Of a stretch of DNA of 13,689 nt, positions 6,940-13,042 are shown one piece after another; the stretch's first letter is position 1; every line of letters starts with the position of its first letter. The position numbers and the translations under genes are program-made. The notes under the pieces were generated by a model. The model was not told the DNA's origin, did not search any database, and worked only from the letters and a program-made list of their open reading frames with translations. The stretch comes from a bacterium (lineage in GTDB: Bacteria > CSSED10-310 > JAJRTK01): assembly GCA_024278345.1 (NCBI GenBank), contig JAJRTK010000024.1:1-13689 (forward strand), given 5' to 3'.

Positions 6940-8603
6940 AGACTTACCGTGGATACCCGATTTTTCTTACTCTTTTTCTCTTCGCGGCGAGCCAAATCTT
7001 CATCCAAGCCACGGCCCAAGAATCTGCAGCCACCCTGATTCCAAGTCAAGAAAACCTTGTGGAACCCGTTGCCAACGCGGATTTCAACGAAACAGGTCCA
7101 CCGGAATCCGCGATGTTTTTGCCGGTGCCGAACCCCAATTTGGAGGATCTTGAACCGGCGGTGAAAGAGCAGATCGAGCAGCTCAGCACCATTCTTCTGG
7201 AGGTCCTTGGTCAGGCCGGCGCGAACTCCGGGGAACAGAGCGAAGCCTTCGGCTTGATGGGACAGCTCTATCACGCTTACGAGCTCTTCGACGCGGCTCG
7301 ATCCTGCTATCTGAACGCCGGACGGCTGGCGCCGAATGACTTCCGATGGCTCTATCTTTTGGCCAGCGTAGAGCGCCAGTCCGGGGAGATCGATAGAGCG
7401 CTGGAACTCTATAAGCGGGCTTGCCGTCTTGAACCGGGATCTGGCGCCTGTTGGGTCTATCTGGGCCGGATGCGCCTTCTTCAAGACCTTCTTCCCGAAG
7501 CCGCGCAGGCCTTCGAGAAGGCGCTGAAGCTCGATCCAGAAAATGCGCCAGCTCTTGCGGGGCTGGGCCAGATTGCTCTTTCCCGCCACCGGTATGAGCG
7601 GGCCGCCCGGTTGCTTCACGATGCCCTGGAAATCGTTCCCGCCGCCAATCTTCTCCACTATCCTCTGGCCATGGCCTACCGCGGAGCTGGAGAGTTAAAG
7701 AAAGCCCGAAAACAGATTGCGCTCCGGGGAACCGTGGGAGTTCGGCCTTCAGACCCGCTGCTCGACGGCCTTCGCGATCTTCTCCGTGGGGAAAAGGTCC
7801 ATCTGGTGAGTGGAAAGATCGCCTTCCAAGCGGGCCGAATCCACGAAGCCGCCCAGCAGTATCAGTGGGCTCTCGCGGCAAATCCCAACAGCGTGCCGGC
7901 TCGCGTGAATCTCGGCTCCGCCATGGCCAGTCTGGGAGAAACTGATGGCGCCATGGATCTTTTCCGCGGAGCCCTCAAGCTCGATCCCGAAAACGGCACG
8001 GCCCACTACAACCTAGCCCGGCTCTTGGGAAGCCGCGGGGACGAAGAAGAGGCCATGGCGCATTTTCAGGCAGCTCTTGGTGTGGACCCCAAAGATCTCC
8101 AAGCACGCCTCGATTTTTCCCGTCTCCTGGCACGAACAGGGCGCCTTGACGAGGCCGTGGAACAGTACCGCACGGTATCCAAGCTCAGCCCGACCCTGGA
8201 AGATGCTCCCCTTGGCGAAGCCGGCATCCTGATCCGGCAAACGCGCTTCCAGAAGGCGATAGAAACCCTGGAATCGGCCTCCAAACGAATGCCGAGCCAA
8301 GGGAGGATTGCACACGCTCTAGCGCGGCTTCTGGCCGCTGTTCCCCGGCTCGATCTCCGTGACGGCCCGCGAGCGCTCGATCTGGCCCGCCGTGTCTACC
8401 GGGCTCGGCAGACCCTTCCTCACGCCCAAACACTGGTTTTGGCGTTGGCCGAGGCCGGGCGGTGCGCCGAAGCCACTGCGCTTCAAAGAGAGGTGATCTT
8501 GTCCATGGAGCGCTCTAAAAACGCCCCTGGGAAACTGGAAAAACTGGAGGGAGAGCTCCAGCGTTACAAGAACGGGCCTCCGTGCCGCCCGCCAGCGGAT
8601 TGA
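6930..8603 (+). CDS. secreted tetratricopeptide repeat (TPR) protein
   Basis: The ATG at 6930 lies inside the last codons of the FG-GAP gene, a 10-nt overlap typical of translational coupling. The frame is open further upstream but only as a shadow of that gene. The 557-residue product begins with a signal peptide (residues 1-29, core IFLTLFLFAASQIFI, likely cleavage after ATA). Residues from about 104 to 460 hold roughly nine TPR units, for example EIDRALELYKRACRLEPGS, AAQAFEKALKLDPENAPAL and EEAMAHFQAALGVDPKDL. A break near 268-290 divides them into two groups of TPRs. A charged helix closes the protein. TPR arrays bind other proteins, so a scaffold role for the FG-GAP partner is a fair inference. 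The stop codon lies in the first copy of a 20-bp tandem repeat. Confidence 0.93.
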   Translation: MEIKTYRGYPIFLTLFLFAASQIFIQATAQESAATLIPSQENLVEPVANADFNETGPPESAMFLPVPNPNLEDLEPAVKEQIEQLSTILLEVLGQAGANSGEQSEAFGLMGQLYHAYELFDAARSCYLNAGRLAPNDFRWLYLLASVERQSGEIDRALELYKRACRLEPGSGACWVYLGRMRLLQDLLPEAAQAFEKALKLDPENAPALAGLGQIALSRHRYERAARLLHDALEIVPAANLLHYPLAMAYRGAGELKKARKQIALRGTVGVRPSDPLLDGLRDLLRGEKVHLVSGKIAFQAGRIHEAAQQYQWALAANPNSVPARVNLGSAMASLGETDGAMDLFRGALKLDPENGTAHYNLARLLGSRGDEEEAMAHFQAALGVDPKDLQARLDFSRLLARTGRLDEAVEQYRTVSKLSPTLEDAPLGEAGILIRQTRFQKAIETLESASKRMPSQGRIAHALARLLAAVPRLDLRDGPRALDLARRVYRARQTLPHAQTLVLALAEAGRCAEATALQREVILSMERSKNAPGKLEKLEGELQRYKNGPPCRPPAD

Positions 8604-8650: not shown

Positions 8651-8804
8651 GGGACCTATCAAATTGTCCTGTTTTTGCTTTACAATTTTCTTCGCCGAAA
8701 CGGTGGCACCGGCATCTTGCCGGTGTAGCGCCCTCCGGGCTGCACGGAGCGGGGAAGGAGGCCCGCCCCAGCGGTGATGTTGTCAACCGGATCTGATAGG
8801 TCCC
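8651..8804 (+). mobile_element. 154-bp inverted-repeat element, family 1, copy A
   Basis: The element begins GGGACCTATCAAAT and ends ATCTGATAGGTCCC, imperfect terminal inverted repeats of about 14 bp. It has no coding capacity. Inside are a hairpin CACCGGC-ATCTT-GCCGGTG (8707-8725) and a second one, CTCCG-GGCTGCA-CGGAG (8733-8749). The flanks CCCGCGAC (8643-8650) and CCTGCGAC (8805-8812) match 7 of 8 and touch the ends exactly, as a worn target-site duplication would. A related copy in the same orientation is at 12166-12321. It could be a MITE or a transcribed structured repeat. Confidence 0.75.
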
Positions 8805-8854
8805 CCTGCGACATCCTGATACGAGGGCAAGGAGCACTCTCCTGGGACGATGAG

Positions 8855-9088
8855 GGGTATCCACGCAAGGCGGGACATTCCCGGGACTGTGGAATCGCAA
8901 GCGTCCGGGCAACGCCTCGCTATCGCTCGGCGGGTCACGTTTGCGTGACTCGAAGGTGGTCCGGGGATTCCATCCCCTGGCAGGGCTTTGCCCTGCACCC
9001 ACCAGGGAGCGCGCTCCCTGGACCCACGTTTTTGTACGCTACGCGTTTTCCTTTTTTTTCTGTTCTGTCCCGCCTTGCGTGGATACCC
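8855..9088. mobile_element. 234-bp MITE with 23-bp perfect TIRs and 9-bp target-site duplication
   Basis: The first 23 bp (8855-8877, beginning GGGTATCCACGCAAG) are the exact reverse complement of the last 23 bp (9066-9088). GACGATGAG stands at 8846-8854 and again at 9089-9097, directly touching both ends, so this is a clean insertion with a 9-bp duplication. There is no transposase gene, so any movement would need an enzyme supplied elsewhere in the genome. The interior is a run of hairpins: GTCACG-TTTG-CGTGAC, CAGGGC-TTT-GCCCTG (8981-8995) and a 20-bp perfect palindrome (9002-9021, half CCAGGGAGCG). A T-rich stretch precedes the right end. A 9-bp duplication occurs in several IS families; I cannot name the parent. 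Confidence 0.88.
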
Positions 9089-9168
9089 GACGATGAGAGG
9101 CGAGGAGCGGCGGACGGAGGGAAACTCGCGCCACAGGCGCGGGTCATGCCCATGGGAGCGGACCACAG
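9089..9168 (+). repeat. dispersed repeat C, copy 1, interrupted on its left by the MITE
   Basis: This segment matches 12966-13042 at roughly 80%, including GGGAAACTCGCGCC, a hairpin CGCGCC-ACA-GGCGCG and GGGAGCGGACC. The left part of the repeat continues on the other side of the MITE at about 8838-8854, so the MITE landed inside the repeat. A short third piece with GCGGCGGACGGA lies near 9318-9348. No coding capacity is evident. Confidence 0.7.
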
Positions 9169-9231
9169 CCCCAAAAAACCAAACGACTACAGGCCAACAA
9201 TTTTCGGGGTGAAAAAGCGGTCGCGGGACGC

Positions 9232-9326
9232 CTTTGGGGTCAGGGAGACCGGTTGGAGGGCGATGATGCCGAAGTTCCGGTGGAGAAAGGCCTTGGGGTC
9301 AGGGAGACCGGTTGAAGGGCGATGAT
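9232..9326 (+). repeat. 59-bp-period tandem repeat, two copies
   Basis: A block of about 36 bp with the core GGGGTCAGGGAGACCGGTT is present at 9232-9267 and 9291-9326 with a period of 59 bp and very few differences. It lies in the non-coding island upstream of a further partial copy of repeat C. No protein reading frame around it has a convincing ribosome site or composition. Confidence 0.75.
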
Positions 9327-9348
9327 AGGGGAGGGGCGGCGGACGGAC

Positions 9349-9483: not shown

Positions 9484-10380
9484 TCAAGCGCCCTTCATGA
9501 CGAGCTCGTTCCGGAAGGATGGGCAAAGTCCGGAAAGAATTAGACTCTCGGCGTAGACAAGGCTTTCCGGTGTATCGACGTCGAGCCAGCACCTCACCCC
9601 AATATCCATGGCCTTCATCTTGCCCACGCGGCTCAGCTCCCGGATGCCGCCACTCAAGGAGGTGTCACCCTGGGTCCGTGCGATTCGGAGGGCATCGAAC
9701 AAACTGTGACGGCAGAGGAAAAAACCGGTGTCTATGGCGTTGAAATAACCCAGTTCCTTGCCAATTTTCAGAATCTTGTTTGAATTGCACTGCACTTTCG
9801 TGGCATCGGGTAAATCGAACACCTCGTCGATCCGCCGATCGATGGCAAGGAGAGTCGCTGGTGAGGGATCGATGGACAGCAGGCTCCGCAAGATCTCTGG
9901 ATCGCAGATATGATCGCACATTAAAAGCAAGAAGGGAGTCGAAACGTAAGGCTGCGCCGCCAGGACTGACGTGCCATTGCCCTCCATCCAATTGGGGTTC
10001 AAGATGGCACGAACGGAGAGCTTTGACCGCATGTCGATCTCTCGGACGTGGGGCACGAGGCGGTCGGCACCATATCCGCAGACGACCAGGCATTCTTCAA
10101 CACCGGCTTCTTCGCAAGACCCCACGTCACGCTCAAGGAGGGTCAAGCTTCCTATTTTTGTCAGCGGCTTGAGATTGCCGCCGTTGCCATTCCTCAGCCG
10201 CGTACCCTGGCCTGCGGCAAGGATGACAGCGGGAACTCCGTGGTTGAAGCGGCGGCGGGGTAGAACTATTCTTTTCGCGATCACGATTGACTTCCAGTTA
10301 GTTCGCAGGATCTTCGCACAACGGCGATGGAGCTCGCGCGGGAGCTTCAACGATTCAAGCAAGGTTCCGAAGAAATTCAT
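9484..10380 (-). CDS. inositol-1-phosphate cytidylyltransferase-like nucleotidyltransferase
   Basis: This belongs to the NTP-transferase fold. Numbered from ATG 10380 (298 residues), VILAAGQGTRL near 52-62 is the nucleotide-binding loop, with K71 in the following LKPL. The rest fits CTP:inositol-1-phosphate cytidylyltransferases: EGNGTSVL, MCDH at 154-157 as metal-binding motif, DATKV at 192-196, IDTGFF at 216-221 and WLDVDTPE at 265-272. The known enzymes activate inositol phosphate as CDP-inositol for di-myo-inositol phosphate. Those proteins often carry a C-terminal membrane CDP-alcohol phosphotransferase domain; this one stops without it. The start is uncertain: ATG 10380 overlaps the PolX stop by 26 bp and suggests coupling, while GTG 10284, preceded by GGAAG, would give a compact start just before the first beta strand. 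A sugar-phosphate or phosphocholine substrate is a possible alternative. Confidence 0.82.
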   Translation of the reverse strand: MNFFGTLLESLKLPRELHRRCAKILRTNWKSIVIAKRIVLPRRRFNHGVPAVILAAGQGTRLRNGNGGNLKPLTKIGSLTLLERDVGSCEEAGVEECLVVCGYGADRLVPHVREIDMRSKLSVRAILNPNWMEGNGTSVLAAQPYVSTPFLLLMCDHICDPEILRSLLSIDPSPATLLAIDRRIDEVFDLPDATKVQCNSNKILKIGKELGYFNAIDTGFFLCRHSLFDALRIARTQGDTSLSGGIRELSRVGKMKAMDIGVRCWLDVDTPESLVYAESLILSGLCPSFRNELVMKGA

Positions 10381-12165: not shown

Positions 12166-12321
12166 GGGACCCATCAAATCGTCGTGTTTCTGCTTTACAA
12201 TTCTCCCCGCCAAAACCGTATGCACAGGCATCTTGCCTGTGCAGCGCCGTCCGGGCTTCACGGAGTCAGAGAAGAGCCTCCCCCCCAATGCTGAAGTTGT
12301 AAACCGGGTTTGATAGGTTCC
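12166..12321 (+). mobile_element. 156-bp inverted-repeat element, family 1, copy B
   Basis: This copy aligns over its full length with 8651-8804. It begins GGGACCCATCAAATC and ends with GATAGGTTCCC, again imperfect inverted repeats. The central hairpin is GCACAGGC-ATCTT-GCCTGTGC (12222-12242). Compared with copy A, both arms changed together (C to A and G to T), so the stem is preserved. ATCTCTGACTCGGAC at 12151-12165 and ATCTATGACTCGGAC at 12322-12336 match 14 of 15 and touch both ends exactly, like a target-site duplication. It lies 92 bp before the PolX start codon and may influence that gene's promoter. Confidence 0.77.
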
Positions 12322-12336
12322 CATCTATGACTCGGA

Positions 12337-12687: not shown

Positions 12688-12942
12688 CTTAGCTTACGGG
12701 CAACGCCGCGCTCCGCACGGCGGGCAACGCCGCGTGCTGCTCGGCGGTCGTCCGGGGATTCCTTCCCCGGTCCCCAGGCAGGGCTTTGGCCTGCACCCAC
12801 CAGGGAGCCAGCTCAACTTCCCGTTGCAACAAAGGGCAACGGGATCCCAGCCCACGTGGATGGACGCTGCGCCTCTTTTTTTGACGCTGCGCCTCTTTTC
12901 TTTCATTCTTCGGGGTGGTTCGATTGGCTTCCTTGAGTGTTA
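12611..12942 (+). repeat. 43-bp direct repeats flanking a hairpin cassette
   Basis: A block with the core GGGGTGGTTCGATTGG occurs at 12611-12653 and 12901-12942, about 39 of 43 identical. The 247 bp between them resemble the interior of the MITE at 8855-9088. They hold a 24-bp tandem pair starting GGGCAACGCCGCG (12698-12721, 12722-12745), a CCGGGG...CCCCGG hairpin, CACCCACCAGGGAGC, and a tandem GACGCTGCGCCTC (12863 and 12883) before T runs. The MITE's 23-bp ends are not present, so this is a related but decayed or differently bounded copy. Confidence 0.65.
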
Positions 12943-12965: not shown

Positions 12966-13042
12966 GTGATAAAGGGCGAGTGGTGGCGAACGGGGGAAAC
13001 TCGCGCCGCAGGCGCGGGTCGTGCCGCCGGGAGCGGACCGCA
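12966..13042 (+). repeat. dispersed repeat C, copy 2, without MITE
   Basis: This matches 9089-9168 at roughly 80%, with GGGAAACTCGCGCC, the hairpin CGCGCC-GCA-GGCGCG and GGGAGCGGACC. At the point where copy 1 carries the MITE and its duplicated GACGATGAG, this copy reads straight through with GTGATAAAG, so it serves as an unoccupied relative of the insertion site. Confidence 0.7.

Follow-up and report, generated by a model that had tools for sequence, protein, structure and literature searches.

Evidence for a mobile, high-copy MITE with a variable hairpin interior in a draft genome of the bacterial lineage CSSED10-310

Analysis of a 13,689-nucleotide stretch of bacterial DNA (hereafter the window) showed a 234-bp element at positions 8855-9088, which is very probably one copy of a real, mobile, and high-copy MITE, i.e., a non-autonomous DNA transposon. 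This assignment is based on its ends, the target duplication, the copy number, the dispersed insertion at different sites, and the presence of paralogous empty sites. A transposase of the ISKra4 family (prokaryotic Mutator-like, p-MULT 4) probably acts as the mobilizer. It adds a new member to an established class of elements.

With a length below 500 bp, the element carries terminal inverted repeats (TIRs) at both ends. The two 23-nt arms are 100% complementary, enclose 188 nt, and are flanked on both sides by the perfect 9-bp target-site duplication GACGATGAG. By this re-location of arms and flanks, the perfect TIRs and the perfect 9-bp duplication described in an earlier note on this DNA were borne out. 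The same applies to the reading as a non-autonomous element lacking a transposase, as inspection of the open frames within or crossing the 234 bp revealed none; the long open frames crossing it are of the kind expected in GC-rich DNA. The interior was likewise confirmed to be a chain of hairpins (Table 1). The insertion site is intergenic. On one side, a TPR-protein gene on the forward strand stops at 8603; on the other, an NTP-transferase-like gene on the reverse strand runs towards it and has its end at 9484.

Table 1. Coordinates of the element, its parts, and a relative within the window.
Feature	Position	Strand	Remark
Left target-site duplication GACGATGAG	8846..8854	.	Single copy in the paralogous empty sites, whose alignments run through the junction
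Left terminal inverted repeat GGGTATCCACGCAAGGCGGGACA	8855..8877	+	413 genomic matches
First internal hairpin module, CCGGGC...GCTCGG	8905..8930	+	Fold of the single sequence and of the alignment
Hairpin module GGGTCACG..CGTGACTC	8931..8952	+	Number per sister copy: 0, 1, 2, or 3
Hairpin module GGGGAT..ATCCCC, short form	8963..8977	+	Longer form in many copies
Hairpin module GCAGGGCTTTGCCCTGC	8980..8996	+	
Perfect palindrome CCAGGGAGCGCGCTCCCTGG	9002..9021	+	Longer CCCGTTGC..GCAACGGG hairpin instead in other copies
Right terminal inverted repeat	9066..9088	-	Matches the left repeat exactly (right-end type R1)
Right target-site duplication GACGATGAG	9089..9097	.	Empty-site alignments
Decayed relative from this element family, lacking the ends	12691..12882	+	About 75-77% identity to family members

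Several other repeats are hosted by the window. Another MITE-like family, about 155 bp long and bounded by the ends GGGACCTATCAAAT.../...TGATAGGTCCC, is represented at 8651-8804 and 12166-12322, and 38 distinct end-like sites of this family (≤1 mismatch) were found in sampled stretches of the same genome. A dispersed repeat with a GAAACTCGCGCCACAGGCGCGGGTC core is located at 9089-9190 and 12975-13042, having 41 matches among the scored candidates from this genome. In addition, an imperfect direct repeat, GGGGTCAGGGAGACCGGTTG(G/A)AGGGCGATGAT, was recognized by eye at 9230-9335, its two copies being about 60-70 bp apart.

A search of the element's own 6.06-Mb draft genome with the 23-bp end, as proposed in the earlier note, revealed many further copies. 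With up to three mismatches allowed, 413 matches were obtained in contrast to zero for the reversed control, so the ends do not arise by chance. The whole element gave 98 BLAST matches in the same genome, a fragmented draft of 550 contigs and 88% completeness. The end matches suggest roughly two hundred copies or more, an estimate kept uncertain by the occurrence of single or truncated ends and by the many contigs that stop inside the element. Neither seven other genomes of the same phylum nor 52 further genomes contained a copy; plasmids were likewise negative in blastn, and a scan of viral contigs with an exact 22-mer and degenerate end patterns gave no usable match. In a collection of genome contigs, such patterns likewise yielded nothing usable among the entries listed, which falls short of a clean negative. 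Three loci at which only the left end is present (L033, L037, and L045) were considered as candidates for an autonomous element and rejected, the element being merely truncated there and the neighboring frames not encoding transposases as judged by inspection. At L033, the truncated copy (1501-1555) lies within a frame of 1007 codons that is open throughout.

Target duplications were evaluated in a sample of 34 complete copies with both flanks available. Perfect 8- or 9-bp duplications were present in 16 of them, every one being a different, unrelated sequence, and seven more copies featured a duplication with one mismatch. Shuffling of the flanks resulted in a mean of only about 0.5 perfect duplications, mostly caused by flanks returning to their own place. 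The different flanks at several copies, which the earlier note had named as a sign of mobility, were thereby observed. Its 9-bp duplication holds for the window copy, while the family makes 8-bp duplications more often (10 versus 6 of the 34 copies). The recent insertion it had postulated is in line with the perfect ends and the retained duplication but cannot be dated, because the nearest complete copies are only about 94-95% identical to the window copy.

The window copy itself sits in another dispersed repeat, having been inserted into one copy of the GAAACTCGCGCCACAGGCGCGGGTC-core repeat described above. Its flanks, joined with a single GACGATGAG, match many other places in the genome. Eleven of these matches were aligned, and several span the junction without a large gap. 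Such uninterrupted repeat copies are paralogous empty sites for the window copy, implying that it was inserted into a pre-existing repeat. In combination, duplications and empty sites support the earlier note's interpretation of the element as a MITE.

The co-occurrence of 8- and 9-bp duplications in a single family, together with the GGGT terminus, points to prokaryotic Mutator-like transposases as the source of mobility. Elements of the p-MULT type possess inverted repeats of 18-39 bp and direct repeats of 8 or 9 bp (PMC3942029). The MITE end GGGTATCC starts with GGG and comprises 23 bp, and the perfect duplications divide into 8 bp (10 copies) and 9 bp (6 copies); in all these respects it resembles the ISKra4 family (p-MULT 4, including the ISAzba1, ISMich2, and ISKra4 groups), which has GGGT or GGGC termini, inverted repeats of about 18-39 bp, and 8- or 9-bp target duplications. 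We examined nine ISKra4-family elements for their ends, seven on plasmids and two in a genome of the same phylum. Ends could be located for six of the plasmid elements and for L158 from the same-phylum genome; all seven start with GGGT or GGGC, and five of them are flanked by perfect 8- or 9-bp duplications. The six plasmid elements start with GGGTGCGG, GGGTGCGA, GGGTTTGA, GGGCGTAA, and, in two cases, GGGTGAAC, and L158 starts with GGGTGTCC; the ends of the remaining two, L159 (cut off) and L171, were not found. L158 (1354-3008, genome G003) is an apparently intact ISKra4-type element with a transposase frame of 471 aa. Its inverted repeats (GGGTGTCCGTCCGGAATACCGGACT) are perfect over about 25 bp, and it shows no target duplication. 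Unlike members of this family, the MITE carries no transposase gene; inward of the outer GGGT-TCC, its TIR also departs in sequence from the ends of the same-phylum ISKra4 element.

Within the host genome, ISKra4 fragments were detected on three contigs (C17, C481, and C464), all of them decayed or cut and none with MITE ends nearby. The remnant on C481 adjoins a hairpin module like those of the element. As this module is a common repeat, its chance insertion may explain the adjacency, and the remnant was rejected as a link to the MITE parent. An intact or end-matched parental transposase gene was not found in the draft. Of the full-length IS with the same ends anticipated in the earlier note, only a likely family could therefore be named; considering that the draft is fragmented, with many contigs interrupted within the element, the parent may be missing from the assembly. 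We class the element as a MITE and only infer its mobilization by an ISKra4-type transposase; a short, targeted literature search retrieved no paper linking MITEs to such transposases. In this view, a trans-acting DDE transposase, in all likelihood from the ISKra4 family, would bind the 23-bp ends, move the element, and introduce staggered target cuts of 8 or 9 nt, which would later be filled in to give the duplication.

Mobilization by another family that makes 8-9-bp duplications, namely IS1595, ISAs1, IS1, or IS256, appears unlikely, even though the host genome contains two copies of IS1595 genes, one ISAs1-like fragment recognized by eye, and two IS1-like fragments. Both IS1595 copies end in GGCTCTATATGCGATCC, and an end of this type interrupts one MITE copy (L046, near 1535). 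The sequence after the stop codon of the ISAs1-like fragment is free of a GGGTATCC end, no MITE end is found near the IS1-like fragments, and IS256 has no match in the host genome. Consequently, none of the four was supported as parent, and the ISKra4 family remains our preferred mobilizer.

The copies of the element differ in their interior. The final palindrome comes in two versions, CCAGGGAGC..GCTCCCTGG and the longer CCCGTTGC..GCAACGGG unit, and one and the same left end is combined with several right ends (R1-R4). Each of the four pairings of palindrome type with right-end type is represented by five copies, which indicates probable recombination between copies, chimeric assembly being less likely. 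Whole palindromic modules have been gained, lost, or exchanged among the copies, for which slippage or template switching at hairpins plus recombination between copies would be the simplest explanation; independent recurrent module loss could also contribute to the combinations. That this mosaic is instead a short-read assembly artefact of the repeat is not very probable. The draft is fragmented and many contigs end within the element, so some internal mosaics could be assembly chimeras, yet all four combinations are found among copies with a matching target duplication on both flanks. A natural hairpin-cassette system, in which hairpins regularly drive the exchange of whole modules and right ends through template switching or gene conversion, is a doubtful extension of biological recombination; if true, the diversity of the element would be generated combinatorially and not by point mutation. 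It is very unlikely that selection maintains the element as a structured RNA or as a regulatory unit (terminator, REP-like, or attenuator) and that transposition is secondary. The predicted folding is indeed strong (-130.9 kcal/mol for the whole element, z -8.7), even if a large share of it comes from the 23-bp terminal inverted repeat, and the hairpin chain and the T-rich right arm would fit such a unit as well. However, only two of the 63 consensus pairs are changed on both sides (covariation term +0.36), modules are freely lost or duplicated, and the element is absent from the rest of the phylum (seven genomes examined). Moreover, the window contains no Rfam family match above the gathering score, and simple scans detected no promoter- or terminator-like sites. 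The suggestion of the earlier note that the element may be transcribed or act as a structured insertion thus found no support. With covariation lacking, we set a conserved RNA function aside as not supported; a host function is unnecessary to explain the element, which we continue to regard as a mobile MITE.

Correia, ERIC, and QMITE have other ends and another duplication than the present MITE, and in contrast to them, whole-hairpin modules are shuffled between copies in the present family. MITEs are described as typically AT-rich, whereas this family is GC-rich (62%). Like the present element, Correia, ERIC, and QMITE are short, structured, non-coding, and TIR-bounded, and a genome contains tens to hundreds of them (PMC10969869). 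Another close parallel, the Chunjie MITE of Geobacter uraniireducens, measures 235 bp at full length and exists in tens of copies, 178-235 bp long, in which TIRs and direct repeats are conserved; further copies are partial (PMC10969869). Compared with this description of Chunjie, the present family is more numerous in view of its 413 end matches.

These data add a very abundant MITE family to a sparsely sampled bacterial phylum, and the element accounts for many of the contig breaks in this draft genome. Its abundance, GC-rich palindromic interior, and modular mosaicism are of moderate specialist interest. The combined empty-site and duplication evidence represents a clean test case for mobility and is accompanied by a probable connection of MITEs to transposases of the ISKra4 (Mutator-like) type; the modular copies, in turn, offer material for studying a possible role of palindromes in driving the diversification of MITEs.
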